This document shows, piece by piece, positions 9,099 to 39,100 of a stretch of DNA of 64,000 nt. Source of the stretch: Romeriopsis navalis LEGE 11480 (GTDB lineage Bacteria > Cyanobacteriota > Cyanobacteriia > Leptolyngbyales > Leptolyngbyaceae); contig NZ_JADEXQ010000010.1 in the NCBI RefSeq assembly GCF_015207035.1, forward strand, positions 1 to 64,000. The letters are read 5' to 3'. The notes under the pieces are model-generated. The model saw only the letters and a list, made by a program, of their open reading frames with translations. It was not told the origin of the DNA and searched no databases. Position 1 is the stretch's first letter, and each line of letters starts with the position of its first letter. The translations under genes and the position numbers were made by a program.

Positions 9099-9323
9099 GA
9101 TTAGTTCTCCGATTAGATTGTTTGAAGACCGTGTTTGGCATGAGTTTTGGGCAAGAAAACTGTAACTGGCGCTGTATCGGTCGCCACTGGGCTGGATACC
9201 ATTACGCATCTGAGTTTTGGCAGCATACTTGAAGCCTGATTTCTGGAGCTAAGTTGAATACTGAGTGAGGAATTACAGTCAGCAGTGTTTGCTCAAAACC
9301 GTTTGCTCAACCCGGTGAATCCA

Positions 9324-9366
9324 AGATAAAAAACTCAGCGATCCAAAACCGATCCGGTAGCGATCC
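9324..9366 (-). promoter_or_regulatory. GGATCG-box promoter, three repeats
   Basis: Minus-strand heptamers GGATCGC (9360-9366), GGATCGG (9349-9355) and GGATCGC (9338-9344) have an exact 11-bp period. Eight bp then separate the last from TTATCT (9324-9329), followed by T. The leader to the start at 9098 is about 220 nt. A fourth, mismatched copy may lie at 9371-9377. This occupies most of the 9099-9450 gap. Confidence 0.75.
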
Positions 9367-9450
9367 GGATACGCCCCAACCATAAGCAAATCGCCCAAAC
9401 TTCATACCAGTAGGAGGCATAGAATTTTCAACAAATTGCAATTAGCCGGA

Positions 9451-10422
9451 TTAAGAGCCTTTATGGATAATCCGGAAGAATAAATTCGCACCGCGTTTAC
9501 GATCGTTGCCCGCTGCCCGCAGAACTGGACTAATCTTGTTTCCACCAAGAGGTCCAGCTCCCATTTGACCAAGCACTTGATTATCTGGTCCAACGATTTC
9601 GCCTGTGGCAATTAGATAACGCACTTTAAACGTTCGTGCGCTTCCAGGGCTGATATCGGCTTGGTCATCGCGCCCAAAATCATCATCCATCATTGTGATT
9701 TCAAATTTGACTTCGCCTTGGGTCCCAGGAATTTTCCGGAATGCTGATTGATTAAAAATTGGGAAATCATTATTTTTAATCGTGCGTGTTTTCAGCAGAC
9801 GCCGTCGATCGAGATTGACTTTCACATAGAAATCCGCCCTTGCCGATCGTCCTCCAGAAAAGGTGCGATTATCAAAAGATTCGCTGGTTTTCACATTTGC
9901 CCCGCGAATCTCAATGCCCACTTGAGAATCGCGTCTTTGCTTTTGGGGCAATAATCGAAAACTATAAGCGGCTGCCGAATTTCGACTGTTGCCAAATACC
10001 TGAAATAAAAGCCGTGTTTTGCCTTGAATATTCAGTTGTCGCTGAGTATTGTTTCCGGCAGATGTCAGTAAAACGACTCGATCGCTAAAGTCACGTCGGC
10101 CATTGTTATTCGTGTCTTCTAAGACTGCATAGGAAAGCCTCGCAGAATTATTACCAGACGTAATGACTAAGGACTGAGCAGCACCATTGACAGTAAAGGC
10201 GTAGAGGTCGCTATCCTGTCGATTACTCAGCTGACCAGAAATGGATAGTGCTTGGTCAACCACAACTGTACCAGTATTGGCTTGGATATTGTTGGGTTCT
10301 CGATCGCGAATAATGCGGGTAAAGGTAGCGGCTTTGCTTGGAAGCGGAGCAAATAGTTGAAGTATGGCAGTGCTGAGAAATAGCGCACTGAATATGGCAG
10401 TACGCAATGGTTGAGATTGCAT
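9451..10422 (-). CDS. Secreted PPC-like plus C2-like protein B
   Basis: 323 residues from ATG 10422 (AGGAGA 8 nt upstream). A signal peptide ends near PSKA-A (about 31). Residues ~38-155 form a PPC-like (bacterial pre-peptidase C-terminal) beta-sandwich beginning REPNNI, with DSDLYAFTV and an EF-hand-like loop EDTNNNGRRDFSD. The C2-like domain follows (~165-323): ARADFYVKVNLD, TIKNNDFPIFNQS, MMDDDFGRDDQADISPG. The last strand pair carries a ~14-residue insertion relative to the paralogues. It lies directly downstream of the C2-like remnant at 10512-10720. Calcium binding is inferred from the two acidic loop sets. Confidence 0.75.
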   Translation of the reverse strand: MQSQPLRTAIFSALFLSTAILQLFAPLPSKAATFTRIIRDREPNNIQANTGTVVVDQALSISGQLSNRQDSDLYAFTVNGAAQSLVITSGNNSARLSYAVLEDTNNNGRRDFSDRVVLLTSAGNNTQRQLNIQGKTRLLFQVFGNSRNSAAAYSFRLLPQKQRRDSQVGIEIRGANVKTSESFDNRTFSGGRSARADFYVKVNLDRRRLLKTRTIKNNDFPIFNQSAFRKIPGTQGEVKFEITMMDDDFGRDDQADISPGSARTFKVRYLIATGEIVGPDNQVLGQMGAGPLGGNKISPVLRAAGNDRKRGANLFFRIIHKGS

Positions 10423-10511
10423 TGGGATATCTCCTAGATTTGAAGTGAAGAGAGCGGTTTTACAGGGTGTAAGGCGGGTGCTGAAGTATGCCTGATATCT
10501 TGATCGAGTGA

Positions 10512-10720
10512 CTAGCAAGTCTTTTGATAAGCCACCATAAAGGTGAGACTGGCTTGTTTTAGCCCTAAACGTCGGCTACCTTTGATCGTAATTAGACGAT
10601 TAGTTTTTCCAATTACTCGCCCCTGACCATCGCGGACCGGGTGTTTATCCGCACGGAATGTATGGAAAAATTGGCTGAGACCACTGCGAGTAATAGCAGT
10701 TGGTTGAGGTAGCCCCTCAT
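10512..10720 (-). pseudogene. Remnant of a C2-like family gene (signal peptide plus last strands)
   Basis: ATG 10720 has GAGG upstream and encodes a signal-peptide-like MRGYLNQLLLLAVVSANF. In another frame the sequence up to the stop at 10512 reads FRADKHPVRDGQGRVIGK, then NRLITIKGSRR, then ASLTFMV. That is the last ~45 residues of the family (YxxxTGxVxGPxGxxIG, then ITVKG, then ASITFKI). The central ~100 residues, with the Asp loops, are deleted and the frame is broken. It is good evidence that the family grows and shrinks by tandem duplication and deletion. Confidence 0.65.
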
Positions 10721-16296: not shown

Positions 16297-19200
16297 ATGA
16301 TGATGCATCACCGCGATCGACCAATTTTGCGCTGGTCTATCCATCACTGCTGCTTGTGGGGGATGCTCACAGTTGGGGGTAGTTTGATGCCGTCGATCGC
16401 GATGGCCCAAATTACGCCTACAACCAATTGGGGGGGCGAGAATTCTCGGCTCAATCCTGCGGGTCTTGTGAACGGCCAATCAGCCCTAGTGATTGAAGGG
16501 GGGGCGACCCGTGGCAATAATTTATTCCATAGCTTTCAGCAATTTAATGTTGCGAATGTTCAGCGGGTTTACTTTGCCAACCCGGCGAATACATCGCTAA
16601 TTTTCTCGCGGGTTGTGGGTGGTCAGCCCTCGAATATTCTGGGTACGCTCGGGGTGAATGGCCTGGCAAGTTTATTTCTGCTCAATCCCCAGGGCGTAAT
16701 TTTTGGCCCCAATGCGCAACTCGATATCCGGGGGGCATTTACCGCGACGACGGCAAATGCTGTGCAATTCGGTAATCAGGGAACGTGGGCGATCGCGCCC
16801 ACGAGTAATCCCCCATTGCTGTCGATCGCGCCTTCGGCCCTGACCTTTGCGGCAAACCAAGGCGCAATCACGAGTCAATCCCAAAATCTCGTTGGTGCGG
16901 CCGGGCAAAGCCTGCTTTTACTGGGTCGATCCGTGCAACTGAATGGTGGCAATATTACAGTTCCTGGGGGCCGCGTTGAATTGGGTGGAATCAATGGTGA
17001 TGGCACTTTGGCCTTGCAACAGCGGGGCAACCAATTTGAAATCGTGGCACTACAGGGAATTCCGGCGGATGTCACGATGACAAATGCAACTACGGTAAAT
17101 CTGCGATCGAATAATGGCGGTGATTTCGTCGTAGGGGCCAATAATTTCACACTCAGCGGTGAAGGGACGCAGATTCAAACGGGACTGGCGGATAATGTCA
17201 GTCAACCCAATGCCCAGGCGGGCAATGTTGATATTCAGGCGATAAATGCCGTCACGATTCAAAATTCTGCGACGATCGATCGCCTGATTCCGGCCACTGC
17301 ATCCGGTGGAAATGGCCAAATTCGGATTGAAGCAAAGACGATCGATTTGCTGAATGGTGGACGTATCAATAGCACCTTGGAGGGACGTGGTGGTGGTGGA
17401 ATCGTTTCCCTGAAAGCGGATGTGATTCGGATTGACGAAGTTGCGTCGAATCGTCAGTCGAGTGGGATTCAAACTGGGGTTGAGTCAGGCGCAGTTGGGA
17501 CGGGGAGTGACGTAACGCTTCAAGCACGATTGCTGCAAATTACCAATGGGGGGCGAGTGGAAACGGATACGGCTGGCACTGGGGATGCCGGTAATATCAC
17601 CATTGATCTGACTGGCGAGTTTGGCTCATTTGGACTCAGTGCGGCCCGCCGATCGCGCAGTGGGATTGGGACATTTGTTGAGCGTAATGCGATCGGGAAT
17701 AGCGGCAAAATCACGATTAACGCTGATTCAGTCTTATTTCAAGATGGGGCCAAGGCCCTGGTGAATGTCGCGGGTCAAGGTCAGGGTAAAACGCTGGCGA
17801 TTAATACGATCGGGAACGTGATTTTAGATGGGGCAAAGCCGTTTCCCGGTTCAACGCCCAGTGGTTTGCTGTCATTACTCCGGGATGGTGCGGTTGGGCG
17901 ATCCGGCGACATTAAAATTCGGGCGGAATCCCTGATTGTTCAGGATGGTGCAGCAATCTCGACGGATGCGACGGGGCAAGGTGATAGTGGCAATGTGGAT
18001 GTGGTGGTGCGTGATTTGGCAGTATTTGATGGCGCATCACCTACGGGCTTTCGCAGTACGATCGGCACTTCGGTTGAACGACTGTTTTTTCCTGGGTTCA
18101 GTTTTGTGGGTAATGCGGCGGGCCAAGCGGGTACGATCAGTGTCACAGCCCGTGAGGTGCAGCTGACCAATGGTGGTTATTTCGCGAGTAGTCTGACGGA
18201 TGCGCCTGGGGCAGCGGGAAAAATTATTGTGAACGCAACGGAGAACGTAATCATTTCGGGAACTGGCACAACTAAACTGTTTTCGCCAAGTGGGTCTATA
18301 TCATTTGAGGCATCATCGGGTTTATTTACCGAAACCTCGGATGATACGTCCGGTGCTGGTGGGGAAATCCGGATTAACTCCCCCAACCTTGATTTATCAA
18401 ATGCGGCTTTAATTAATTCTTTGACATCGAGCCGAGGGCCGGGGGGGAATATCACCCTCAATGTGCCGGAAATTAATATTTCTGGCGGTGCCCAAGTCAG
18501 AGTGACGACGCTTGATACCGCGCGTGCCGGTGACATTTTGCTCAATGCTGCCGATCGACTTGTGGTCAGTGGAACAAATCCTAATTTTGTCCCTGCCGAT
18601 AGTCCGGATCTCCAACCGCTGTTTTCAGCAAGTGCGATTTTAGCCGATACACAACCCGACTCTAGTGGTCCCGGTGGTATTCTGCGGATTAATGCGGGTG
18701 ATGCGATTGTCCAAAATCAGGGCACGATTTCTGTCAGTAGCCAGGGTCAGGGAGCGGCAGGATTGCTGGATATTACAGCCCGTTCTCTTCTGCTAAAAGA
18801 TCGCGGTTCACTGACTGCTGGCACCAGTAATGCAACGGGTGGCAATATTAATCTCAATCTTCAGGCAGCGCTACTGCTGCGTAATGCGAGTACGATTTCA
18901 ACGACCGCTGGAACGGCTCAGGCGGGGGGTGATGGTGGGAATATTCAGATTCGATCGCCCTTTATTGTGTCTGTTCCCAATGAGAATAGCGATATTACGG
19001 CGAATGCTTTTTCGGGTCAGGGCGGACAAGTATCGATCGATACGCTGGCGCTATTTGGGTTGATTCCTCGGAGTCGATCAGACTTGGCAATTGCCTTGGG
19101 CAGTAATGAACCATCGCAGTTGCAGCCATCGCGACTCAGGAGCAATGACATCACCGCCATCTCCCAAATCGATCTGAACCTGAGTGGTGATGTGCGAATT

Positions 19201-19578
19201 AGCCAATTAGATGTTGATCCGACCCAATCAGCCGCACGCCTACCGGATGACTTGCTCGATCGATCGGATCAAATTAATCAAAGTTTGTGCCGTGTGACCC
19301 AAGGAAGCCAATTTATTCTGACGGGGCGGGGTGGGCGTCCAACTTCGCCGATCGTTCGACAACTCACGCCGCTGCGGACTTGGGAGGATATTCGCTTCAG
19401 TCAAGTTGCAGAAACTGCTGAAGCTAAGGCTGCGTCGATGGTTCAAATGCCAGGTACGCGGCAAATCGATCGACTCACTGAAGCCCAGAGTTGGTATCGC
19501 AGTGATGATGGCAAGATCCACTTAGCTGCTAAGGTAAATCGCGCAAAATCTAGTTGGATGAGTTTACCCGGTTGTTGA
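16297..19578 (+). CDS. Two-partner-secretion exoprotein 1 (filamentous haemagglutinin N-terminal domain)
   Basis: 1093 residues. A signal peptide (to IAMAQ, ~38) is followed by the haemagglutination-activity/TPS domain: LFHSFQQFNV, then GVNGLASLFLLNPQGVIFG, then LDIRGAFTATTA. This is recognised by a TpsB outer-membrane transporter. Most of the rest is Gly/Asn-rich parallel beta-helix sequence (GGNI, AGNI and GGRV repeats). A conserved C-terminal segment shared by all three exoproteins contains DVDPTQSAARLPDDLLDRS and SLCRVTQGSQFILTGRGG. Likely a secreted adhesin or matrix protein. No tpsB/ShlB gene is present in the window. The first of three consecutive ATGs at 16297 was kept; the exact start is uncertain by two codons. 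Confidence 0.85.
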   Translation: MMMHHRDRPILRWSIHHCCLWGMLTVGGSLMPSIAMAQITPTTNWGGENSRLNPAGLVNGQSALVIEGGATRGNNLFHSFQQFNVANVQRVYFANPANTSLIFSRVVGGQPSNILGTLGVNGLASLFLLNPQGVIFGPNAQLDIRGAFTATTANAVQFGNQGTWAIAPTSNPPLLSIAPSALTFAANQGAITSQSQNLVGAAGQSLLLLGRSVQLNGGNITVPGGRVELGGINGDGTLALQQRGNQFEIVALQGIPADVTMTNATTVNLRSNNGGDFVVGANNFTLSGEGTQIQTGLADNVSQPNAQAGNVDIQAINAVTIQNSATIDRLIPATASGGNGQIRIEAKTIDLLNGGRINSTLEGRGGGGIVSLKADVIRIDEVASNRQSSGIQTGVESGAVGTGSDVTLQARLLQITNGGRVETDTAGTGDAGNITIDLTGEFGSFGLSAARRSRSGIGTFVERNAIGNSGKITINADSVLFQDGAKALVNVAGQGQGKTLAINTIGNVILDGAKPFPGSTPSGLLSLLRDGAVGRSGDIKIRAESLIVQDGAAISTDATGQGDSGNVDVVVRDLAVFDGASPTGFRSTIGTSVERLFFPGFSFVGNAAGQAGTISVTAREVQLTNGGYFASSLTDAPGAAGKIIVNATENVIISGTGTTKLFSPSGSISFEASSGLFTETSDDTSGAGGEIRINSPNLDLSNAALINSLTSSRGPGGNITLNVPEINISGGAQVRVTTLDTARAGDILLNAADRLVVSGTNPNFVPADSPDLQPLFSASAILADTQPDSSGPGGILRINAGDAIVQNQGTISVSSQGQGAAGLLDITARSLLLKDRGSLTAGTSNATGGNINLNLQAALLLRNASTISTTAGTAQAGGDGGNIQIRSPFIVSVPNENSDITANAFSGQGGQVSIDTLALFGLIPRSRSDLAIALGSNEPSQLQPSRLRSNDITAISQIDLNLSGDVRISQLDVDPTQSAARLPDDLLDRSDQINQSLCRVTQGSQFILTGRGGRPTSPIVRQLTPLRTWEDIRFSQVAETAEAKAASMVQMPGTRQIDRLTEAQSWYRSDDGKIHLAAKVNRAKSSWMSLPGC

Positions 19579-20637: not shown

Positions 20638-21054
20638 TTATAGCTCATCGACGGGTTGGCCAATTGCGCTGAGAAATGCGGATTTGTTGGCGGGTGAGAC
20701 GATAATCGATCGAGGGCGACCATTGCCGTATTTGATTTCTAGGCGATCGAGGGAAAGTGCGGGACCGGATAAAGGATTGTGGGTTGCCTGAACGGAGGCA
20801 ATGGTTGAGAGTGGCACAATCCAGCGGAATGGCCCACTCTGTACTCGGAGTTCCCGGTCAGTAACGACGTATTGTGTTGATAAGCCAATCCAAATCGGCA
20901 TGCCGACGCCGAGGAGCAGCATGCCCACTGCGGCTAAGTAGGAAATTGTCTGACCTTGAGTCAGGCTGATATAGACGCCGAGGATGGATGTGATGATTAG
21001 CAGGGCGAGGATAACCAACAACCAGTTATCGATTTTTGAATGGAATGTTTGCAT
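20638..21054 (-). CDS. Membrane protein with bacterial PH-like domain
   Basis: 138 residues. Two transmembrane helices (about 10-31, WLLVILALLIITSILGVYIS, and 37-60) precede a C-terminal PH-like domain: YVVTDRELRVQSGPFRWIVP, then STIASVQATHNPLSG, then LEIKYGNGR and an ISPANKSAFL-type helix. This is the usual architecture of small bacterial bPH proteins, which often scaffold envelope stress functions. It is downstream of its own CCTGAA-box promoter (21103-21145) and about 30 nt after that of gene D, with no overlap. No catalytic residues are seen. Confidence 0.75.
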   Translation of the reverse strand: MQTFHSKIDNWLLVILALLIITSILGVYISLTQGQTISYLAAVGMLLLGVGMPIWIGLSTQYVVTDRELRVQSGPFRWIVPLSTIASVQATHNPLSGPALSLDRLEIKYGNGRPRSIIVSPANKSAFLSAIGQPVDEL

Positions 21055-21102
21055 TGTGTGAGTCCTGAAGATTGGGATGGAATAGATGACAAGATTAACT
21101 TA

Positions 21103-21145
21103 AGCCTATGATGCCAGTGCGATTGATATTTGAGGTGAATTCAGG
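21103..21145 (-). promoter_or_regulatory. CCTGAA-box promoter of the PH-domain gene
   Basis: Minus strand: CCTGAATTCA (21136-21145), CCTCAAATAT (21126-21135, identical to the second box at 4733-4742), 17 bp, TAGGCT (21103-21108), which fits only TAnnnT. Confidence 0.55.
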
Positions 21146-21241
21146 ATTTGCTTGGGGTTGTCGGTGTTGATGCAATTTTTCTGGTAGTTGCGCGACTGAT
21201 GACAACTTAGATGGCTACCAGCAGGATGTAGACTTCAAGGT

Positions 21242-21997
21242 ATGCGGAAATCACGAACTTTGCGGTGGAAGTGGTGCTATCACATTACGATTCGGTGTAA
21301 TAGTCGAGCGTTTCGACTGTTGCGGCGGGTCTGTCGGGAGGTGCTGCTGTATGCGTTATCCAAGTGCCGGGAGAAGTTTGGCTTTAAGCTCTATGGTTTG
21401 TGCATTATGAGTAATCATGTACATTACCTGCTTGAGCCAAGGGAGCCGGAGGATTTGCCCAGGTTGATGCACTGGCTTAACTGGTATACGGCGATGTGCT
21501 TTAACCGGATGCTGAATCGGACAGGCCACTTTTGGGAGAAGCGGTATCACAGTACGGGGTTTCCGAATAGCGACTATCGGCGGGCGCTGAATACGCTGCG
21601 CTATATCCATGGGAATCCGAAGGTAGCGGCGATGCAGCAGGGTTTCTTTTATGACTTTAGTAACTACGGGATTTATGACCGGTTGACGGAGGATGGGCTA
21701 ACGCAGTGGCATCCCGCATTCTTAGCGTTGGCCGCGAGTCTAGAACTTTGTGCCGCCGCCTATCGCAAGTTTTGTCGGCGGTATCAGCCCAAGCCGAAAC
21801 CACCGAAGCGGCATCGCTGGGGCAGTAAGCTACTCGGGAAGATTCGGGCGCGGGGAAAGCCGAAAAAGGTGAGTCCGGGACAAAAGAGTCTGTGGGATGA
21901 CTGGGATCTGCCTGCGGCGGAAATATTGGCGGTGGCTGAGAAATTTGTGCAGGCGAATCAGTATCCGCCGAAACCACCGGATCCCTACTCTGATTGA
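21242..21997 (+). CDS. REP-associated tyrosine (Y1/HUH) transposase
   Basis: 251 residues. The Y1 transposase fold is shown by WCYHITIRCN near the start, the HUH metal motif IMSNHVHYLL and HFWEKRYHSTGFPNSDYRRA, then TLRYIHGNPKVAAM and a Tyr-bearing helix (FSNYGIYDR). The last ~60 residues are basic and Pro-rich. RAYT-type members mobilise short palindromic REP sequences. A perfect CCTGG-TG-CCAGG palindrome lies 12 nt after the stop, and a CTGGTAG/CTACCAG inverted repeat lies upstream (about 21179-21220), either of which could be cognate. No full IS ends are visible. Confidence 0.8.
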   Translation: MRKSRTLRWKWCYHITIRCNSRAFRLLRRVCREVLLYALSKCREKFGFKLYGLCIMSNHVHYLLEPREPEDLPRLMHWLNWYTAMCFNRMLNRTGHFWEKRYHSTGFPNSDYRRALNTLRYIHGNPKVAAMQQGFFYDFSNYGIYDRLTEDGLTQWHPAFLALAASLELCAAAYRKFCRRYQPKPKPPKRHRWGSKLLGKIRARGKPKKVSPGQKSLWDDWDLPAAEILAVAEKFVQANQYPPKPPDPYSD

Positions 21998-22084
21998 GGT
22001 TGAGCCTGGTGCCAGGTAAAGAATCGCTGAAAGGGTTGATTTGAAGATGAAATAGCTGCTGTTACAAACCTTTAAAAATTGCTA

Positions 22085-22106
22085 GGACTGCTGTGTGCTA
22101 CAGTCC
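22085..22106 (-). terminator. Possible terminator of the NACHT-GUN4 gene
   Basis: Minus-strand RNA forms GGACUG/CAGUCC with a 10-nt loop, overlapping the last codons and the stop at 22098, followed by a weak U-rich stretch (AAUUUUUAAA). The stem is short, so confidence is moderate. Confidence 0.45.
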
Positions 22107-24362
22107 ACAAGTCTTTGCGCGAGAAAAGATATCACTCACCCAACTCCACCACCCCCCCCTAGAAGGTAATTCTCCCTGTAGAGAAATTGAAGGATTCTTT
22201 TGGAGGTTTTCGTAATCCATGAATTCACCTTCGATGCGCCAACCGACGCGATCACAAAATAATATCCACTGTTGTCGTTCTTCGTCGGTTAAATCATAAC
22301 CCTTTGGACTGCCACATTCTTCCCAAATTTTTTTCTGGACAGAGAAGCCAAACTTTTCGCCGCTGTATTGAAGCCAGAGTGAATTGAGCCGTTGCAGATC
22401 CCAGCAAGGAAACGTCTCCAGATCTTGGACTGTAAAATATTCACCGAAATCTTTGCCACAGGTCTGAATCATCAAGCGATAATTTTCGATGTCCGCTTCG
22501 CGCCATTGGCCCTGCTGCATGAACTGCTCAATTCGCTGATAGCGCAAGGGTTGTAATTCGCTAATCCAATCTGGCTCGATCCGCTCAGATGGATGCCGAA
22601 CTAAGCAATCGTAGGCTAAGTAGACATTCCCTGCTTTGTCTTCACCGTTGCAGGCGGCTTGCGCAAGTGGATGCAATTGAAGTGGCTTTAGCTGACTGCA
22701 ATACATCAGAATCGTCTCGCGCCACCAGTCCTCATGCCAATGGGCAATCAGCTCATCCGTTAGATTCAACCGACTGATTTCTAGTGCAGCTAAATAGTTA
22801 CGAAAACTAAGATGAGAAAAAGCATACTCCTCTGTATCGGGCTCGTATAGCAGCTCGCTGATCTGTACCATCTGCTTCAGAAAAGACTGAGCATCTGCGG
22901 TTTCATCAAGTTTTGCCAAAGCTAATCTGATCAGCTCAAGTAACTTATTTTTTTCAATTTGCACCGTATTCTGTCGCACCATTTCTAGGGCCACAGCCTG
23001 AAGCACCTGTTGTCGTTCCAATGGTTTATCCAGCAGCATCGCCACCCGTTTGGCACTGGGGCGTGCTCCAAGCTGAAGATCGCAAATTTCTTGATAAAGC
23101 TCAGTTTTAAGCTGTGGCAGCGTTTCATTAGGATAAAACTTATGCAGTCGTGCAATCAAATTCAACAGCAACGGATTCCCAGACATCTTCTGTAATTCCG
23201 GTGAACTGTCAATTTGCCCGATCAGATTTGCTGCTTTGCGTTGTGCCTCATCACGCACGATGGGTGACATTTTCCCCATCCGAAACACGAGTTCCTGACT
23301 CAGATACCACTTCTGCACGAACGTATCACGCTCGATTTTTTCAAATTCGCGGACACGTAAAGTTGTGGGTTGTTCTGTCGCATATTCCTTGAAGTCGTCA
23401 TAGCCCCCCGGTCGAGAAGTCAACAGAAAAACTGAATTGGGGTAGTTGTTTACCTGCCGACTAATCCACTCAGCAATAGTTTGCCGCTGATGCTTGGCTA
23501 CCTCATCAAAGCCATCGAACATAATTAATCCATGTTTCAGCTTATTCTCAGCCCAATTGCTGGGTACCTTGAGATTCGGCCCGTCGCGGAGATCCTGCAA
23601 ATGCCGCATCATCAAGTCAGTCATTGTGATTGACGGATTCTCTGAAATCACGTCGCGCCACTTTCGTAGGAAAATTAGAAAAGGTAGTAAAGTCGGTACC
23701 TGCCGCCCATATTTTCGTTGTTGACCCTTGGCATATTTGTAGGTCACATGACGCATCAGCGTAGTCTTCCCCGAACCACCATCGGCCAAAATTGCGATAA
23801 ATCGATAGGCCGGGACTCGTTTCACCTGGGCCAGAAAGTCCCAAATCTGCCAAGTTTGGCTCCGCTCTTCTGACGATACTCCACCACCAAATTTTCCTAC
23901 CGAGAGGTCGAGATTTAATGGCACGAACACATCATCTAAATTGATCTGCCAAATTCCATCCGGCTGCTTAAAATCTTCTGTCCCGTAGTATTCCTGGCAG
24001 CGTTCTCCTTGTCTCTGTAAATAACGCCCATCACAACCTGAGAAACGCCACTTAACCGCTTCAAGCCCATGGTCAATGGATTGGTCGATCGCCTTGCCCA
24101 CGTTTTCAAGACGGCGTTGATTGCCTACATGTATAGGCTCTAGGAGTTTGCCAAGATAAGAGAAACAAAATCCAATGAGTGCCGAGGCAATTGCTTCTGC
24201 CGATTTATGCTCAATAAAAAGTAGCCATAGGCCATAACCCCCACCAACGGTAATACCGCCTGGTTTCAAAGCCTTAATGGCGAGTGCAGCAAGTTGAGAT
24301 GGAACACTGGAAGATTGTTGATCGTTGTTCGACATGGGGCAACACACAAACATCATTCCCAT
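22098..24362 (-). CDS. Membrane-anchored NACHT ATPase fused to a GUN4 domain
   Basis: 754 residues. Two hydrophobic segments near 36-74 suggest membrane anchoring. A NACHT-type STAND ATPase follows with Walker A GGSGKTT (195-201), Walker B LIMFDGFDEVA, LLTSRPGGYDDF (sensor) and a helical arm. Residues ~617-754 match GUN4: GQWREAD, FPCWDLQRLNSLWLQYSGEK, FGFSVQKKIWEE, CDRVGW and a C-terminal SRAKTCGL. GUN4 binds porphyrin and Mg-porphyrin and stimulates Mg-chelatase, so the fusion may sense tetrapyrroles. NACHT proteins also act in antiphage defence. The frame starts at 24362; ATG 24335 (MSNNDQQ) is an alternative. Neither has a clear ribosome binding site. Confidence 0.82.
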   Translation of the reverse strand: MGMMFVCCPMSNNDQQSSSVPSQLAALAIKALKPGGITVGGGYGLWLLFIEHKSAEAIASALIGFCFSYLGKLLEPIHVGNQRRLENVGKAIDQSIDHGLEAVKWRFSGCDGRYLQRQGERCQEYYGTEDFKQPDGIWQINLDDVFVPLNLDLSVGKFGGGVSSEERSQTWQIWDFLAQVKRVPAYRFIAILADGGSGKTTLMRHVTYKYAKGQQRKYGRQVPTLLPFLIFLRKWRDVISENPSITMTDLMMRHLQDLRDGPNLKVPSNWAENKLKHGLIMFDGFDEVAKHQRQTIAEWISRQVNNYPNSVFLLTSRPGGYDDFKEYATEQPTTLRVREFEKIERDTFVQKWYLSQELVFRMGKMSPIVRDEAQRKAANLIGQIDSSPELQKMSGNPLLLNLIARLHKFYPNETLPQLKTELYQEICDLQLGARPSAKRVAMLLDKPLERQQVLQAVALEMVRQNTVQIEKNKLLELIRLALAKLDETADAQSFLKQMVQISELLYEPDTEEYAFSHLSFRNYLAALEISRLNLTDELIAHWHEDWWRETILMYCSQLKPLQLHPLAQAACNGEDKAGNVYLAYDCLVRHPSERIEPDWISELQPLRYQRIEQFMQQGQWREADIENYRLMIQTCGKDFGEYFTVQDLETFPCWDLQRLNSLWLQYSGEKFGFSVQKKIWEECGSPKGYDLTDEERQQWILFCDRVGWRIEGEFMDYENLQKNPSISLQGELPSRGGWWSWVSDIFSRAKTCGL

Positions 24363-24367
24363 AGTCT

Positions 24368-24415
24368 ACTAAATCCAAATCCTAGATTTAGTTAATTTTT
24401 TGGCAAAAGTTTGCC
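24368..24415. promoter_or_regulatory. Palindromic sites upstream of the NACHT-GUN4 gene
   Basis: CTAAATC (24369-24375) and GATTTAG (24385-24391) form an inverted repeat, and GGCAAAAGTTTGCC (24402-24415) is a perfect palindrome. Both lie in the promoter region of the gene and could be operators for a dimeric regulator. Neither matches the CCTGAA or GGATCG boxes. Confidence 0.35.
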
Positions 24416-24469
24416 CTATCGTATGCCAATTTCAGAAAGTGTCACTCACACAAAAGGATAAGGATTGGG

Positions 24470-25503
24470 CTAAGTACAGGACAAAAACTGCAGAACGTCT
24501 GTGAAATCGCTATTTGTTTTACCAGAGAGATTGAGTAGCTGTTGCCGGAGATAGTCAAAACCGAGTCGAAAGAGGCTCTTGGCCTTGCGTCCATGGGTTT
24601 TGATGGGAATCGATTTGAGTTGATTCTGCCACTCTCCTGTACGAAAGGCCCAACAGAGTGCGATGGCCAGTAAAGCGACCATGCGACTGAGCCGTTCCGG
24701 GTCTTGCAGGTGGGTCGATTCGAGACAAAAGCCGCGCGTTTTGAAACAGCCGAATAAAGTTTCAATTCCCCATCTTTGGCCGTAATCCCGAATCGCCTGT
24801 TGAGGTTTAGTATCGCTGACCACGACCAATAGCGCCCCATCATCAAGTCGCAAAGCCGCGACATAGAGCCAATGGCCCCAGAGACACCGGCGGTTTCTTA
24901 AAACCATTTGTTGGCCCGGTTGCAGATGACTGAATATGGCTTGAACCTTCAGTTCGCGCCGACCATCGTAAAGCTTCTCACTTTGGCGGATACGGATGCG
25001 GAAGGGCAGATGCTGGGTATTGTGCAAGTAGTCCATCCAGAGTTGGCCCAGAAACTCCCGGTCGCCAGTGATATAGGCTACTTCGACGGTCGGAAATACC
25101 GTCAGAAAGTCATCCAGCAGGTCAATCCGCTCACCCTGGCTGGAATTCCCTTTTTTATTCAACATCACCCACAACAAGGGAAATGCCACGCCTTGATGGA
25201 CAACACCCAACATCAAAATATTGAACACAGAGTCGCCATATTGCCAATTAGTCCGGTCGATGGACAGCACCCAAGGTTGCGGAATTTGCATCATCCCCGC
25301 CACCAGACGCGCCACTTCGTAGTAGTCCAACTCAAAGTGCCGAAGAACCGTTGCAGTCGCTTATAACTTGAGGCTGACGATGCTGGGCCAATAAAGCCCA
25401 AAGACAATTCGCTGAGATTTACTGTCTTCACCCGAAATAGCGCCACTAGGAACAAGGCCAGAAAGCCGATGCGGGCACCATGCCAGTTCAGGTGGGGCTG
25501 CAA
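24470..25503 (-). pseudogene. IS4-type DDE transposase broken by a one-base deletion
   Basis: The N-terminal part (25503 down to about 25330) reads LQPHLNWHGARIGFLALFLV to YKRLQRFF. The frame is then lost; one missing C restores the expected RFFRHFELDYYEVA. The C-terminal frame (to 24470) has SIDRTNWQYG (first Asp), YITGDREFLG (second Asp) and YGQRWGIETLFGCFK, an exact Y-x2-R-x3-E-x6-K signature of the IS4 superfamily. The stop codon TAG lies inside the terminal inverted repeat. The upstream reading frame is open to about 25533 without a clear ATG. The break could be a real mutation or a sequencing error. Confidence 0.82.
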
Positions 25504-27721: not shown

Positions 27722-28360
27722 CTATTTGGGTTGACAATTCGGTCGTTTAATTCGACAGTTTGGATCAAAGGGTGGTTTCGGTTTGGGATCAGAAACGCGT
27801 CGATCGCTGTGATTCACAATAAAGTTGATGCTGGCCTGATATTTTCGATGGTCGCCGCGTACTGTGATGGTTTGCCCACTGTGTCCTAGGGCTGTTCCTG
27901 TAGTTCTATAGACCTTGCCAGTCAATGGCTCATAGTTCAGAGTCAAGATGCGGGCGTTGGAGCTGGGATTGATATCGGCAGTATCATCCTTATTGGGCCA
28001 ACGATCGCTATCCATTAGTTTGAGGCTAATCGGAATTAGTTTTTTGCGCGGTGATACAAGACGTGTGACCGTATGGTTAAACCGAGGATGGGTACGATTA
28101 ATCCGAATTTTCGTTCTCTTTAGCTGTTTGCCATCAATTTTTGGCACAACGTAAAAGTCCGGTGCCGCTAAAGGGGTAATTGCGAGGGAGCCAGGACGTA
28201 AGGAACCTGGATCAAAATTGCCGTTATGTCTACCCACCTTGGCCTCGAGGATTTTGATGCGAACAGTTCGACGGACTTTTGGTGCCGCCTCGGTTTTGAT
28301 GGAAAATGTACCCATTAGGGCAATCGTCGCAAGGCTCAGCAGGGTAATTTGACGTTTCAT
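27722..28360 (-). CDS. Secreted C2-like domain protein E
   Basis: 212 residues from ATG 28360 (AGGAGA 7 nt upstream). Signal peptide ITLLSLATIALMGTFSIKTE. The domain is longer in loop 1 than in its paralogues: NGNFDPGSLRPG, APDFYVVPKIDG, then NRTHPRFNHTV, LMDSDRWPNKDDTADINP and ITVRGDHRKYQASINFIV. A ~25-residue Pro/Lys tail (SDPKPKPPFDPNC) with two Cys follows, unique to this copy. It is the last gene of the ten-gene array, 41 nt after gene F and before the terminator at 27643-27680. Confidence 0.75.
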   Translation of the reverse strand: MKRQITLLSLATIALMGTFSIKTEAAPKVRRTVRIKILEAKVGRHNGNFDPGSLRPGSLAITPLAAPDFYVVPKIDGKQLKRTKIRINRTHPRFNHTVTRLVSPRKKLIPISLKLMDSDRWPNKDDTADINPSSNARILTLNYEPLTGKVYRTTGTALGHSGQTITVRGDHRKYQASINFIVNHSDRRVSDPKPKPPFDPNCRIKRPNCQPK

Positions 28361-28401
28361 ATTATGTCTCCTAAAGTTAATCAAATTCATTGGTCGACGA
28401 T

Positions 28402-29313
28402 TTAGCGAATCACTGGAGGAAGTGTTGTTCGGAGACGGAAGCTAATGCTTGCACGATTTTTCCGGGCATTCCCGCGCATCGTGATTGTCCGACCACCAAA
28501 GCCAATGCGTTTGCCATTTGGACCAAACACTTCGTTCGTAATTGGGCTGTAGCGAATTCTCAATGTGCGGGCCCCTGTCGGACTGATATCCGCTTGATCA
28601 TCCCGTCCAGGATCGCTATCTTTCAGCCGGATATCGTAGGTCACTTGCGGCTGATCCGTAATTTGCGAATGCGTTGCTTTAGTAAACCGAGGATTATCAT
28701 TATCCTTAATTCGCTTCGTTGTAATAACCGATTTACCACCAGTTCTGACATTCACAAAAAAGTCAGCTCGATGTTTTTTCGTGAATGGAACTTTACGATC
28801 GAACTTCGTTAAGGCCTTTGCGCTCAGTACCGATAGGCTGACGACCCGCAGTGGTTTAGCGATCGTCACAACGTATCGCCCACCAGCATTTTGCGACTTG
28901 GTCGCCCGCAGTAGATAGTTTGTGCCAGCAGACGTGTTAACAAAGCGAATTTTGGCCGGTCTTGCCCGAAGCAGAAACTTGTCACTGGCATCAAACTGCC
29001 CATTTTTATTAGTATCCTCATAGAGTGACAAGCTAATATTTCTGGAGCCGCTGCCAAAGTAGTTGAGTGAGAATTGGGCATCTTTCCGATTCATCCGGAA
29101 TGCATGAATATCCTCTCGATCGTTTCCAGTCATTGCACCTGCAAATGAAACCGCATCATCGGCTGCATAAATTGGCGTAACCGCTGCGGCTTTGGGAAAG
29201 TTTGGTTCTTTCTCCTGAATTGAGCGAACTCCCGCCGCTGCTGGGGCAATCGTCCCGAGTAGCGATCCGCCGGTTAAACCGAGCAGGCAAAGAGCCATAA
29301 GTTGACGTTTCAT
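28402..29313 (-). CDS. Secreted PPC-like plus C2-like protein F
   Basis: 303 residues. Signal peptide MKRQLMALCLLGLTGGSLLG. PPC-like domain ~33-155: EKEPNFPKA, DREDIHAFRM, and the EF-hand-like YEDTNKNGQFDASDKF. C2-like domain ~160-300: TKFDRKVPFTKKHRADFFVN, KDNDNPRFTKA, LKDSDPGRDDQADISPTG, ITMRGNARKNRASISFRL. All expected Asp positions are present, making it one of the best candidates for Ca2+ binding. Co-transcribed with gene E from the CCTGAA-box promoter at 29561-29603. Confidence 0.78.
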   Translation of the reverse strand: MKRQLMALCLLGLTGGSLLGTIAPAAAGVRSIQEKEPNFPKAAAVTPIYAADDAVSFAGAMTGNDREDIHAFRMNRKDAQFSLNYFGSGSRNISLSLYEDTNKNGQFDASDKFLLRARPAKIRFVNTSAGTNYLLRATKSQNAGGRYVVTIAKPLRVVSLSVLSAKALTKFDRKVPFTKKHRADFFVNVRTGGKSVITTKRIKDNDNPRFTKATHSQITDQPQVTYDIRLKDSDPGRDDQADISPTGARTLRIRYSPITNEVFGPNGKRIGFGGRTITMRGNARKNRASISFRLRTTLPPVIR

Positions 29314-29560
29314 AGTTTTCCTGTTGTTAGTTGTGTTGGAATTGGTATGGGTAGAGGTTGCTGTTGTGCTGATTGAGGCTAAATTCTGAAATCAACGAGC
29401 GATCGTCTTCAGCGCTGATAATCTTCAGCAGATGATCTTCAGCCTTTGATTCAATGCAGTGAGCTTTGTGAAAATTCGGGCATGATTATGCTTACTGCAT
29501 CCCTAGGCCAGTACGTTGTGTTGATCAATGGCCTAGATGCTGATCGAGTTACATAATCAC

Positions 29561-29603
29561 AGTATCGATAATTTAGCAGTCCGTTTCTTCTGGTAAACTC
29601 AGG
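29561..29603 (-). promoter_or_regulatory. CCTGAA-box promoter of the F-E unit
   Basis: Minus strand: CCTGAGTTTA (29594-29603), CCAGAAGAAA (29584-29593), 17 bp, GATACT (29561-29566); another CCTGAATT at 29621-29628. The 29314-29764 gap also holds three ATCTTCAGC copies near 29407-29440 of unknown meaning, and no gene. Confidence 0.7.
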
Positions 29604-29764
29604 GTTGAGTTGGGGAAAAATTCAGGTGTTGCGATCGGCTGATACCAAATTGCAAAATTAGTGCAACCGATCAGATCACCAACTGCCGCAATCACCAGTT
29701 GACTTGGTATGACTGCTAATTTCAGATAGAAAGCGGTCGTACCGTGAGATCAGTCAATGTGACT

Positions 29765-30310
29765 TTATCGAGTGAAATGGCTAATCTTAAATATGATGCC
29801 AGTGCCATGCTTAGCATCATCACCATGAAACGCTAGCCTCTGACCGCGGACACCAATCTTTTTGCCTGATGGGTCATAGACATTCCCCGTATCTGCTTCG
29901 TACAGCACAGTCACACTTTTCTGCTGCGGTGACGAATGAATATCAACAGTGTCATCCCGTCCTGGATCACTATCCATCAGCGTTAGCTTCACTGGCGTCC
30001 GCCGCTGATGGGGAATGGCCATGGTGCCGCTATATCGAAAGAATGCAACGGATGAATTCTTGACGGTTCGCGTACGGCGTAGCTGCCGACTATTAACCTT
30101 GAGCTTCACGTAGAAATCAGGCAGCGAATGTTTAAATCGGTTGCCAGGATCAAAGTTAAAGCGCCGTTTTGGCGGTACCTTAGCACTGACCACTCGAACT
30201 TGAATCACGCGTTGGCGTGGTACTGGATTGGGTCGAGGTTTTGCGATGGCCGGAGCGATTAATCCGGCGGTAGCAAAACATATCGCGATTGCCGATACTT
30301 GATGCTTCAT
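29765..30310 (-). CDS. Secreted C2-like domain protein G
   Basis: 181 residues, ATG 30310 with AGGAGG upstream. Short signal peptide ending near AIA-K (23). One C2-like domain: FNFDPGNRFKHSLPDFYVKL, KNSSVAFFRYS, LMDSDPGRDDTVDIHSS, LAFHGDDAKHGTGIIFKI. It is more divergent at the C-terminal strand (TGIIFKI for ASITFKI), and the ADI motif is VDI. Last gene of the run of eight that starts at 35476, with an 83-nt gap after gene H. Confidence 0.75.
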   Translation of the reverse strand: MKHQVSAIAICFATAGLIAPAIAKPRPNPVPRQRVIQVRVVSAKVPPKRRFNFDPGNRFKHSLPDFYVKLKVNSRQLRRTRTVKNSSVAFFRYSGTMAIPHQRRTPVKLTLMDSDPGRDDTVDIHSSPQQKSVTVLYEADTGNVYDPSGKKIGVRGQRLAFHGDDAKHGTGIIFKISHFTR

Positions 30311-30393
30311 CTGAAGCCTCCTAATAAAATAAATGGACTATTTTGAATCAATCTGATTGACCACGGACTTTGATACGTACGACGACAAAGTTT

Positions 30394-31362
30394 CTAATCT
30401 TTGTGGTCAATTTTGAACGTGATGCTTGCTGGTATTCCTTTGAGTCTTTCTCGGTTGCCAATACCATTGGTGAATACGCCATGTCCCTTTACGGTAATTG
30501 CTTGGCCACGGCGACCAATTGGGTGACCCGTTGCTAGACTGACTCGACCGGTGGCGGGTCTATACCGAAATATTAGATGTTTTGAGCCAAGCAGATTTCC
30601 TGAATTCTTTGGACTAATATTTGCCTTATCATCCCGACCAATATCACTATCCAGAAGCCGGATTTTATATTTGATGCTCTGAGTAGTTACCGGCAAGGTT
30701 GTAACTAATGTTTTATTGAAGACAGGACGATTATTATTTTTGACAGTCTTCGTCTTTAACGCCTGCTTACCATTGACATCGACTTTGACATAGAAATCCG
30801 CACGACTTTTTTTCGTACCTGGGAAGCCTAAGTCAAAACGGCGTTTTGTGCTGGCACTGATAATTGTGAGGATCACGCGTCGCTGTTTGACTGTCACGCG
30901 CCGGATTGGCTGAATAAATGCGCGATATGTACCACCAACTGGTGTACTGGCCGGTTGGTGTATCCGCAATAAATAGCGCTTGCTCCCGGCTTTATTGACT
31001 GTCCCATTCCGATTATTGAGAATAATTCTGTCACCGCGATCGATGCGGCGATTGCCATTACGATCTTCGCGTAGCTCCCATCGAGCTTGTCTTGGCAATG
31101 CCATGCTGACGCGAAATCGGGCGATATTTTTGCCAACATTCAGAGCGTATAGGTCCTGAGAATCGTTGCCAAACATCTGTCCTTTGATCTCGATCGGTCG
31201 GCTGGAAGTGATGCCGATCGGTGATGATGCGCTTTGATTATTCGGTTCAACCTCCTTGACAATCCGGGTTGGTGAAATTGGCTTTTGGGCAAATCCGGGT
31301 GATACTGATAACACAGTCAGCATCATGCTGCCTAAAGCAGCAGAGACAATTTGATATTTCAT
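30394..31362 (-). CDS. Secreted PPC-like plus C2-like protein H
   Basis: 322 residues, GAGGATCACC before ATG 31362. Signal peptide to about GFAQ (25). PPC-like domain: KEVEPNNQSA, DSQDLYALNVG, and REDRNGNRRIDRGDRI, an EF-hand-like loop. C2-like domain: RRFDLGFPGTKKSRADFYVK, KNNNRPVFNKT, LLDSDIGRDDKANISPKN, and an extended C-terminal hairpin (AITVKGHGVFTNGIGNRERL) before ASITFKI. This is the only PPC-containing copy inside the run of eight, so domain gain or loss must have happened more than once. Confidence 0.78.
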   Translation of the reverse strand: MKYQIVSAALGSMMLTVLSVSPGFAQKPISPTRIVKEVEPNNQSASSPIGITSSRPIEIKGQMFGNDSQDLYALNVGKNIARFRVSMALPRQARWELREDRNGNRRIDRGDRIILNNRNGTVNKAGSKRYLLRIHQPASTPVGGTYRAFIQPIRRVTVKQRRVILTIISASTKRRFDLGFPGTKKSRADFYVKVDVNGKQALKTKTVKNNNRPVFNKTLVTTLPVTTQSIKYKIRLLDSDIGRDDKANISPKNSGNLLGSKHLIFRYRPATGRVSLATGHPIGRRGQAITVKGHGVFTNGIGNRERLKGIPASITFKIDHKD

Positions 31363-36147: not shown

Positions 36148-39100
36148 ATGCCACGTAACTTAGAATCAGAAGGTCCCAACGCTGCTTACCAAGCTGTTCT
36201 ATTTTTATCTGTTTTTGTTTTGGCAGCAGCGCCACAATCCGCGATCGGACAAATTATTCCCAGCAATAACTGGGGCGCAGAAAACACTCGGCTTAACCCG
36301 GTAGGAGTTGTCAACGGCCAACCCGCGCTGACAATCGAAGGTGGTGCACCACGGGGCAGCAATTTATTTCACAGCTTTCAGCAGTTCAACGTGAATTCGG
36401 GACAACGTGTTTATTTCACAAATCCGAATGGAATTAGCACAATCTTCTCCCGCGTGATTGGTGGTCAAACATCGAATATTGCCGGTACCCTGGGCGTTAA
36501 TGGTGTAGCCAACCTCTTTTTGCTCAATCCTCAGGGCATTATCTTCAGCCCAACAGCCCAACTTGATATACGGGGATCGCTAGTTACCAGTACAGCAAAT
36601 TCAATTGTTTTCGGCAGTCAAGGTAAATTCAGAATTTCCTCCTCTACAGCACCGACACTACTGACTATTGCACCATCAGCACTGGAGTTTGCAGCTAATC
36701 AAGGCGCAATCATTAACCGATCGACCAACCTTGAAAACACGAACCGCAGCAGCCTATTACTTTTAGGTAGTCAAGTCCAACTAGATGGAGGCAGTATCAG
36801 CACGCCAGGTGGAAACGTTAGCTTAGGTGGGGTGCGAGGTGATGGCACTCTCGTGCTTCAGCAAGTAGGAAATCAGTTTCAAATTATCTCGACAACAGGT
36901 ACACCAGCAGATGTAACACTTCAAAATGGAGCGCAGGTCAACGTACGATCGGATAATGGTGGTGCCGTAAATATTCAAGCGAACAACTTTACGATGCAGG
37001 GATCTGGGACGGAAATTCTTGCCGGAATTGCCGCTAATTCTGGCACATCAGAGAGTCTGGGAGGTAATATTCGTATTGCTGCTTCGAAGTCGGTTTTGCT
37101 AGATGATAATGCTATTATCGATAACTCGATATTGTCTGGTGGTACTGGTAATACTGGTGATATTCACATCAGTGGAAAGCAAATTATATTTCGGAATAGT
37201 AGTCATATTAATACTGAACTGCTCGGTTCAGGTAGTCTCGGAAATATTGATTTACGCAGTATCGGCGATATTTCATTTCAGGCAGGAGATGGTACTCAAA
37301 GACTCATACCGAGAGGAAATGGCAGATTCTCTCGCAGCGGAATTTTACGCAGAATTGGGGTTGGTGGAATTGGCAATATTGGCCCATTGACTATCATCAG
37401 CAACAATTTTGATATTCTTAAGGACGCTGCAATTGTGACTCAGATCGCGGGCCAAGGTAATACAGACGATATCAACATTGATTTACAAGGCGCACTTAAT
37501 CTTCCAGAATTAAGTTCCATAGCCAGCACAATTTCTCAGGGGGGGCAGGGGAGTACAGGAAACTTAGGAATTAATGCTCAATCACTCACTGTCAAGGACG
37601 CGAGTATTATAACTTCTAACTCCTCTGGCATAGGATTTCCTGGTGGATTTAAGATTCAGGTCAAAGACGATGTTATTTTCACTGGGTTTAAGCCTGGTCC
37701 ACCATTAACTCGTATAACTACCATTAATACCAGTTTACGAGATCCAGCAGTTGGGAGAAGTGGTGATATAGAAATCACTGCAAATAATATTTATGTAACT
37801 AATGGTGCAACAATTGCTACCTCATCTTTTGGTCAGGGTAATGGCGGTAATATTACTTTGAATGCGAGAAACGATGTTGTTGTTGATGGTGTAAATGAAC
37901 GTGGTTTTGATAGTCGCATCAGTGCTGACCTATTAAAGGTGTTTTTTCCACGTTTTGGTTTTCTTGGGCGCGCGAAGGGCCGGGGCGGTGATGTCCAAAT
38001 CACAGCTAACCGAGTGTCTGTGCTAAATGGTGCTTCGATTAGTGCCAATATTAATGATGCCCCTGGTGCTGCAGGCAAAATATCGATTCAAGCCAAAGAA
38101 TCTGTCCGCGTTGCTGGGCAGGGAGATGGAATCAGATTTAGAATCATTGATGGCAAATCGCGCATTGTACCCTTTCCTGTACGTCCCCGGATTTTTGTTG
38201 CTACGGCGGGTGATACAAATGCGCCCGCTGGCGTGATCGAGATCAAAACACAACAATTGCTCGTTGAGCAAGATGGTAATGTTGATGCGACAAGCAGTAG
38301 CCGGGGAGTGGGTGGAAATATTGATATCAAGAGCAACCAGGTACTTGTTCGCTCAGGTGGCCTAATTCGTACAACAGCAACAGATGTTGGTAATGCTGGC
38401 CAGATTAATATCGATAGTGCCCAACAAATCCAAGTTACGGGGGAAAGCCCCAAGCCCTTGCCTGAATCAATTATTTCCAATAGTGCGATCGTTGCTCGCA
38501 CTACAGATAGTTCTTCTGGTAAAGGCGGTTCAGTGCAATTGAATACCCAGGAACTCATTGTTGAGAATAATGGCTTAGTTTCGGTCAGTAGTCAGGGTAT
38601 AGGGATTGGTGGGCAGTTACGAATTAATGCTAGTACTACAAAACTACGTGATCGTGGACAGTTGCTCGCCGAAACAAGTAGCAACACAGGGGGTGATATT
38701 CTCCTAAATCTCAGCGAGGTTCTCCTTTTACGTCGTGGCGCTAGTATCTCAAGCACTGCTGGTACAGCTCAGCTTGGAGGTGATGGAGGTCAGATTAATA
38801 TCCAATCACCATTTATCGTAAGTGTTCCTGGCGAAAATAGCGATATAGCGGCTAATGCGTTCTCTGGTGCTGGCGGTCAAGTGAATATCAATGCATTGAA
38901 TCTATTCGGTATCCGACCAAGGACACGTCTCGAACTGGAGCAACTGCTACAAGTTAGCGATCCATCCCTACTCAATCCCAGTCGGCTCACCAGCAATGAC
39001 ATCACCGCGATTTCGCAAACTAGCCCCACTCTGAGTGGTAATGTCAGTATTAGTCAGATCGATGTTGACCCAACCCAAGCGGCGGCGCGATTACCGGATG

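Follow-up and report, generated by a model that had tools for sequence, protein, structure and literature searches.

A NACHT-GUN4 gene of Romeriopsis navalis with a hypervariable tail, a conserved DNA element and a convergent Y1/HUH transposase

The NACHT-GUN4 gene and its GUN4-like domain

The window analysed here, a 64,000-nucleotide stretch of contig NZ_JADEXQ010000010.1 from the cyanobacterium Romeriopsis navalis LEGE 11480, contains on its minus strand a gene (22098..24362) coding for a protein of 754 amino acids, in which the methionine at residue 10 is a possible true start. A sequence-only reading had placed the open reading frame correctly and had rightly assigned a NACHT and a GUN4 domain to it, both Pfam matches being far above chance. 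The NACHT ATPase domain (residues 189-353; 23304..23798, minus strand) matches PF05729 with an E-value of 2.4e-15 and 57.2 bits against a cut-off of 26.7. Its Walker A (GGSGKTT) and Walker B (DGFDE) motifs are intact, with residues that are invariant in an alignment of the 21-member family, and by this profile and these motifs the protein is a NACHT/STAND NTPase. The GUN4-like domain (Pfam extent residues 605-739; 22146..22550, minus strand) matches PF05419 with an E-value of 1.1e-27 and 97.3 bits against a cut-off of 29.2. The sensor of Avs and bNACHT proteins is usually found in the C-terminal position, and as a layout the suggested STAND/NACHT switch with GUN4 at its C-terminal end was borne out; a tripartite STAND layout has also been described in PMC10907252. 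Several membrane helices had been suggested at residues 36-74, of which we recover a single weak hydrophobic stretch, residues 56-74 (24141..24197, minus strand; Kyte-Doolittle 1.40), as a possible membrane anchor. Even so, 20 of the 21 family members reach a Kyte-Doolittle peak of 1.3 or more within their N-terminal part. The structure model of the window protein is not confident at the N-terminus.

The GUN4 region had been taken to be complete. The Pfam match ends at model position 133 of 141, however, and the ligand loop between alpha6 and alpha7, with F196 and the LxNxLR motif, is absent. The fold is kept: the isolated domain is predicted with a pLDDT of 92, and all 14 structures matched by this model at E<=0.001 are GUN4 proteins, ligand-bound ones included (TMq 0.61-0.76). 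Binding of bilins and porphyrins has been tied to F196, N211, L213 and R214 (PMC8967248, PMC10156173), and we counted pocket residues in 142 domains (144 were kept, two being lost to a name clash), namely 26 canonical GUN4 proteins, 14 NACHT fusions and 102 other paralogs, a class in which the window copy and a few of the NACHT fusions are included. F196, W198, N211 and L213 are each present in 26/26 canonical proteins, 0/14 NACHT fusions and at most 8/102 other paralogs (F196 in seven, N211 in one). R214 is found in 26/26, 2/14 and 1/102, and LxNxLR in 23/26, 0/14 and 0/102, respectively. The core positions W150 and Q163 are retained in 14/14 NACHT fusions and 101/102 other paralogs. The window copy itself has L196, S209 and G211, with gaps at 213 and 214. 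The scaffold of the domain is thus retained and the known ligand loop is gone. Loss of LxNxLR in GUN4 paralogs was already reported by Rockwell and Lagarias (PMC10156173), and the residue counts extend it to NACHT fusions. Compared with canonical GUN4, the Mg-chelatase cofactor, and the cyanobacterial paralogs (PMC10156173), with which it has the fold and core motifs in common, NACHT-GUN4 differs in that the domain is part of STAND and other effectors and ends in a hypervariable tail in place of the ligand loop.

Hypervariable tail, conserved element and convergent transposase

Neither the hypervariable tail nor the linked transposase had been noticed in the earlier reading. Past the GxLP of the GUN4 core, the proteins run into an unalignable stretch, which is followed by C-termini such as SLASRLVNCNI, LFSRVETCKL or LLSRRDL, and these ends are translations of a single DNA sequence in its three frames. 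This sequence is a conserved DNA element, present in the window at 22031..22126 (minus strand; TTTCTCGCGCAAAGACTTG...), which codes for the final residues and has stops in all three frames; its consensus is TTCTCTTCTCTCGCGTCGAGACTTGTAAACTGTAACA... Stops in every frame within 60 nt were found in 97/106 elements vs 13/2420 control windows, and Ser-Arg is encoded in all three frames in 23/106 elements vs 2/2420 controls and in at least two frames in 83/106 elements. A second conserved motif, TACCTGGCACCAGG, lies at 22005..22018 (minus strand), at the usual distance of 108 nt from the element start; the form TACCTGGYAY occurs in 65/105 loci, at a median of 108 nt past the element start (10th-90th percentile 108-111). 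RNAalifold paired none of the element consensus, four folds of the element DNA had energies no better than shuffles, and Rfam gave no match up to E 1 within positions 21000-24600 of the window. A stem of at least 6 bp is found in columns 24-56 in 20% of 89 elements vs 4% of mononucleotide shuffles, in a register that varies. The element core occupies only four places in the Romeriopsis genome: three exact copies, each at a GUN4 gene, and one with two mismatches where a contig ends.

The GELP codons are separated from the element by the hypervariable, G/T-rich tail segment, which we call VAR (37 nt in the window; 22127..22163, minus strand). We analysed VAR in 106 of 122 element-bearing paralogs, the other 16 having no clear xLP anchor, with one genome per species in the comparisons. 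Its length ranges from 13 to 648 nt with a median of 59.5, the 648-nt case including a second GUN4 domain, and the lengths fall into the three phases 51/31/24. The GUN4 frame runs open through VAR into the element in 103/106 loci, and stops take up 4/2289 codons in this frame vs 98/2238 and 96/2207 in the other two. As stops are nearly absent in the GUN4 frame only, VAR is translated and kept open, under strong selection. Its composition is unusual: G+T is higher than in the upstream DNA in 94/105 cases and exceeds 0.7 in 52 VARs and in no upstream segment, runs of at least four G occur at 18.6 per kb vs 2.5 upstream, and the bias extends to synonymous sites, the glycine codon GGC being used 28 times in 365 where 89 would be expected. 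C falls below 8% in 29/102 VARs vs 58/1073 length-matched upstream windows, and these low-C VARs consist of G 0.49, T 0.34, A 0.14 and C 0.03.

VAR diverges as a block between conserved flanks. Over 59 related pairs, which are not independent of each other, identity averages 0.83 in the upstream DNA, 0.46 across VAR and 0.83 over the element, and random VAR pairs give a baseline of 0.41. The loci L031 and L032 are 95% identical upstream and 97% in the element, with 45% in VARs of 42 and 74 nt that differ in phase, and two paralogs at L120 are 95% identical upstream, 19% in VAR and 100% in the element. The VARs of two of the 59 pairs, L121/L122 and L031/L040, are alike (0.92 and 0.88) and show ordinary drift only. 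It thus appears that the tail DNA has repeatedly been replaced wholesale. Element heads nested within VAR, as traces of earlier insertions, were found in 1/102 cases, which is no enrichment. At L263 (4965-6293), one gene has two GUN4 domains with a variable segment and an element copy after each, as if by tandem duplication.

Convergent to the NACHT-GUN4 gene, on the plus strand, lies a gene for a RAYT-like Y1/HUH transposase of 251 amino acids (21242..21997; Y1_Tnp, E 1.5e-16), whose stop is 100 bp from the NACHT-GUN4 stop. Its HUH motif, NHVH, is encoded at 21413-21424 and the presumed catalytic tyrosine, in YIHGNP, at 21602-21604; no PDB match was found at E 0.01. The same genome has, on contig C42, a caspase-GUN4 gene with a matching layout of element and transposase. 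The transposase there is 87% identical, with one TAG when read to residue 250 in the genome search, and the homologous unit of the two copies consists of element plus transposase, with 84% identity over 864 bp. A GTDB genome search with six transposases gave 181 relatives, the best 80 of which were taken as loci and come from Leptolyngbya, Nostoc, Calothrix, Xenococcus, Trichodesmium, Microcystis and other records. Seventy of these 80 transposases have intact HUH and tyrosine motifs and no internal stops.

Association and spread

With the transposase alone as query, a convergent GUN4 gene is present at 66/80 loci (best 80 of 181 relatives) and the element at 64/80. When only those of the best 80 with at least 600 nt of downstream DNA are considered, the GUN4 gene is found at 65/71, a near-obligate association. 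Among the six exceptions, L214 has an overlapping GUN4 ORF and L270 a GUN4 ORF 2.3 kb away, and no GUN4 gene was detected at L244, L259, L272 and L281. Searching 194 genomes with the element alone gave 28 exact matches, 27 of them inside the end of a GUN4 ORF, vs 0 with the reversed pattern. A sample of 93 GUN4 paralogs, each followed by 400 nt or more of DNA, comprises 21 with element and transposase, 31 with the element only, one with the transposase only and 40 with neither (Fisher p 1.2e-5), so that 31 of the 52 element-bearing genes are without a downstream transposase. Neither element nor transposase was found at canonical GUN4 genes (0/26, of which 25 have at least 400 nt downstream). 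Distances between transposases correlate with those between the GUN4 domains (Spearman 0.376, 0/999 permutations, n=69).

The NACHT-GUN4 protein is matched at E<=1e-10 in 119/386 genomes of the phylum, mostly over one domain only. Among the matches listed, with at most two scored per genome, about 17 span NACHT and GUN4 and come from several families, so the fusion is recurrent. The Romeriopsis genome has nine GUN4 loci, two of which are NACHT fusions. Across cyanobacteria, GUN4-like domains are found on the C-terminal side of modules of kinase, caspase, TIR, trypsin and NACHT type. The partners of 66 of the 72 transposase-linked GUN4 proteins, six from GUN4-side searches being left out of the scan, are NACHT (19), caspase (9), kinase (7), AAA_35 (7), TIR (5), KAP (2), CHAT (2) and trypsin (2), and 90 other GUN4 paralogs have protein kinase (38), caspase (7), trypsin-like (5) and TIR (5) domains. 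For part of the analyses, the GUN4 paralogs were a subset picked by list order. Joining of GUN4 to kinase-, caspase- and TIR-type domains in conflict proteins was noted by Kaur et al. (2020, 2021), with the same architecture and predicted immune context; a variable tail, an element and a transposase are not described in the passages on these proteins. Neighbouring GUN4 paralogs are clustered at G008:C77 (L108), at G064:C1 (2.93-2.95 Mb) and at L143, several with differing variable tails.

Relatives of the transposase at E<=1e-40 were found in 39/367 sampled genomes. Spread by viruses was considered and rejected, as none of 50 pattern matches in viral contigs is a relative. Small-genome cyanobacteria (G141, G189, G264 and other f19 genomes) have up to seven relatives with 45-52% identity. 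A plasmid of Cylindrospermopsis curvispora (NZ_CP060823.1) carries three copies, the annotated one being convergent with a gene for a "GUN4 domain-containing protein", and the unit can therefore travel on plasmids. The convergent neighbour of the transposase on a Nostoc edaphicum plasmid is annotated as "AAA-like domain-containing protein".

A proposed diversification cassette, its alternatives and the genomic neighbourhood

We propose, as the reading that we hold to be fairly probable, a NACHT signalling protein with a GUN4-paralogue scaffold and a tail exchanged as one block, this tail being part of a dedicated three-part diversification cassette. The GUN4-paralogue domain would be the C-terminal sensor scaffold of a STAND (NACHT) protein and not a tetrapyrrole pocket, and the tail, standing where canonical GUN4 has its ligand loop, would be swapped as a unit. 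The first part of the cassette would be VAR, of any length and sequence, and the second the element, placed at a fixed spacing from the motif near the transposase and ending translation in every frame; any VAR length would therefore yield a finished protein. The third part would be the dedicated convergent HUH-type Y1 transposase, which we infer to cut single-stranded DNA at or near the border between VAR and element and thereby to allow VAR to be rewritten. The tail could then serve an immune-type sensor as its recognition surface, in line with what has been proposed for NACHT-CLec proteins diversified by diversity-generating retroelements (DGRs), and activation of the NACHT domain might lead to a membrane-linked response. 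We read the GUN4-like domain and its tail as a diversified sensor because the partner domains resemble those of DGR targets in multicellular bacteria, which are proposed antigen sensors (PMC10907252). Several observations speak against the proposal: the cassette has no polymerase gene, 31 of the 52 element-bearing genes sampled by way of GUN4 have no transposase downstream, VAR did not vary within a species in genomes available one per species, the element DNA has neither a consensus fold nor energies better than shuffles, nested element heads are not enriched in VAR, two related pairs differ in VAR by drift only, and the window locus has no defence gene beside it. Targeted protein hypervariation in bacteria is known mainly from DGRs, and the tail unit points to a possible new route of sensor diversification in bacteria. 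If the proposal is correct, there would be a second, transposase-linked kind, present in many cyanobacteria, whose targets are NACHT, caspase, TIR and kinase effectors and by which immune-type sensors could vary with no reverse transcriptase step. A role would then follow for a clade of domesticated RAYT-like transposases, and the abundance in cyanobacteria of GUN4-like domains without the known tetrapyrrole loop would be accounted for. No description of a unit of GUN4 gene, element and transposase was found in a search of open-access literature, and there may be an earlier one elsewhere.

One might go further and speculate, tentatively and with the balance against it, that the cassette is a system of junctional diversity. 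A domesticated HUH transposase would open the DNA at the element border, at the 3' end of genes for immune effectors built on the GUN4 scaffold, and DNA of any length, G/T-rich and for the most part untemplated, would be added. Each lineage would in this way write its sensor tails anew, with the element stopping translation whatever the resulting frame, in many cases with Ser-Arg in the C-terminal end of two or more frames. V(D)J junctional diversity likewise has a transposase-type enzyme beside a junction of variable length that can be read in any frame. Unlike V(D)J, the cassette shows no sign of untemplated addition, segment recombination or somatic timing. If true, the system would correspond in function to N-region addition in vertebrate antigen receptors while working with no reverse transcriptase.

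The transposase, a Y1_Tnp protein, could instead belong to a mobile element of the ordinary kind, IS200-like or REP-linked, with a preference for the 3' ends of GUN4 genes and with VAR as leftover or decayed coding sequence, and the homologous unit of element plus transposase in the Romeriopsis genome, together with the many partial copies, fits this idea. We regard it as unlikely. The unit has the Y1 HUH transposase of IS200/IS605 elements but not two structured ends and a dispersed pattern of insertion: no shared end was found upstream of the transposase (best 9-mer 5/76 vs 44/72 downstream), 65 of the 71 copies with enough downstream DNA sit at GUN4 genes, and a decayed VAR is at odds with the strong selection that keeps it open in the GUN4 frame. 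The closest known enzymes are the RAYT/TnpA_REP proteins, with which the cassette shares the HUH-Y core (NHVH, WE, YIHxNP), a low copy number here and the absence of a shared upstream end (PMC6006769). By the motif table of that paper the cassette transposases have a HUH-Y core with class-2 motifs, with NH[VI]H in 77/80 and YIHxNP in 79/80 of the best 80 of 181 relatives. Where RAYTs are linked to dispersed REPs, the cassette transposase keeps to a single gene family and a single DNA element, and PMC6006769 apparently makes no mention of GUN4.

Improbable, in our view, is a DGR that acts in trans or has since been lost, in which an error-prone reverse transcriptase copies an A-rich template and rewrites VAR, the element being a homing site and the transposase a bystander. 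The position of VAR, at the 3' end of the gene ahead of a conserved element, is DGR-like, and the low-C VARs fit biased mutagenesis of an A-rich template. DGR replacement preserves length, whereas VAR extends from 13 to more than 100 nt (648 in the tandem-domain case) and changes its reading frame. The Romeriopsis genome (99.5% complete) has three RVT_1 matches, whose best PADLOC models are generic RT/group II-like, RT-Cas1 and retron XIII, none of DGR type, although PADLOC is not made to classify DGRs. It holds no template repeat for the two own VARs or the element core that were searched and no second copy of either VAR, including the 27-nt core of the window VAR. A DGR is thus disfavoured in the Romeriopsis genome, and the base bias leaves one possible elsewhere. 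A GUN4-like domain has been named among DGR variable proteins (PMC7517822), and the similarity to DGR-diversified NACHT/STAND-CLec proteins extends to targeted 3'-end hypervariation of conflict-system genes, a conserved DNA boundary site and the kinds of N-terminal partner, namely NACHT, kinase, caspase and TIR (PMC10907252, PMC7517822). The GUN4 cassette differs from these systems in having a HUH transposase in place of reverse transcriptase and template, a VAR of changing length and frame, and a GUN4-like scaffold instead of CLec.

A tetrapyrrole-responsive NACHT switch, with GUN4 gating the ATPase on binding a porphyrin or a bilin, was the interpretation first offered for this gene. The retained fold fits it, as does the prediction by Kaur et al. 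(2020) that GUN4 in conflict systems senses tetrapyrroles, and the N219G variant of Chlamydomonas GUN4, which lacks Asn211/219, still binds porphyrin (PMC10156173), so that the NACHT form may bind porphyrin by another mode. At the sequence level, however, the porphyrin-contact residues are lost, an outcome that the earlier reading had itself named as speaking against it, and because F196 and N211 are invariant in canonical GUN4 and missing, like W198, L213 and LxNxLR, from all NACHT fusions counted, tetrapyrrole sensing appears unsupported and the switch very unlikely. The idea that the C-terminal tail, a part of proteins that is often variable, is unimportant and has simply evolved fast is disfavoured and scarcely credible in view of flanks with at least 95% identity around VARs at chance level (L031/L032 and the two L120 paralogs), an element conserved as DNA across three frames and stop avoidance limited to one frame.

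The company of its partner domains points to a possible immune role for the proposed diversified sensor, which might extend to phage defence. A defence island around the gene had been considered, and no known defence gene was found next to it: a PADLOC search of 13 neighbouring proteins in the window gave only two weak partial matches, both in one ATPase protein. Membership of the NACHT-GUN4 protein in the PD-T4-6 system was rejected, as only positions 304-425 of the PADLOC model PDLC04062, its GUN4 part, match; cyanobacterial GUN4 proteins may therefore be miscalled PD-T4-6. The three reverse transcriptases of the Romeriopsis genome, at G000:C25 (L185), C144 (L184) and C172 (L183), comprise a retron-XIII-like one, an RT-Cas1 fusion and a generic one similar to group II intron enzymes. 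Upstream of the NACHT-GUN4 gene lies an IS4-family transposase gene (24470-25330, minus strand), possibly missing its N-terminus. Several genes with C2-domain matches are found at 27722-31362 and 8496-10518 (minus strand), and 16297-19578 and 36148-39462 (plus strand) each encode a large protein with a TPS secretion domain.
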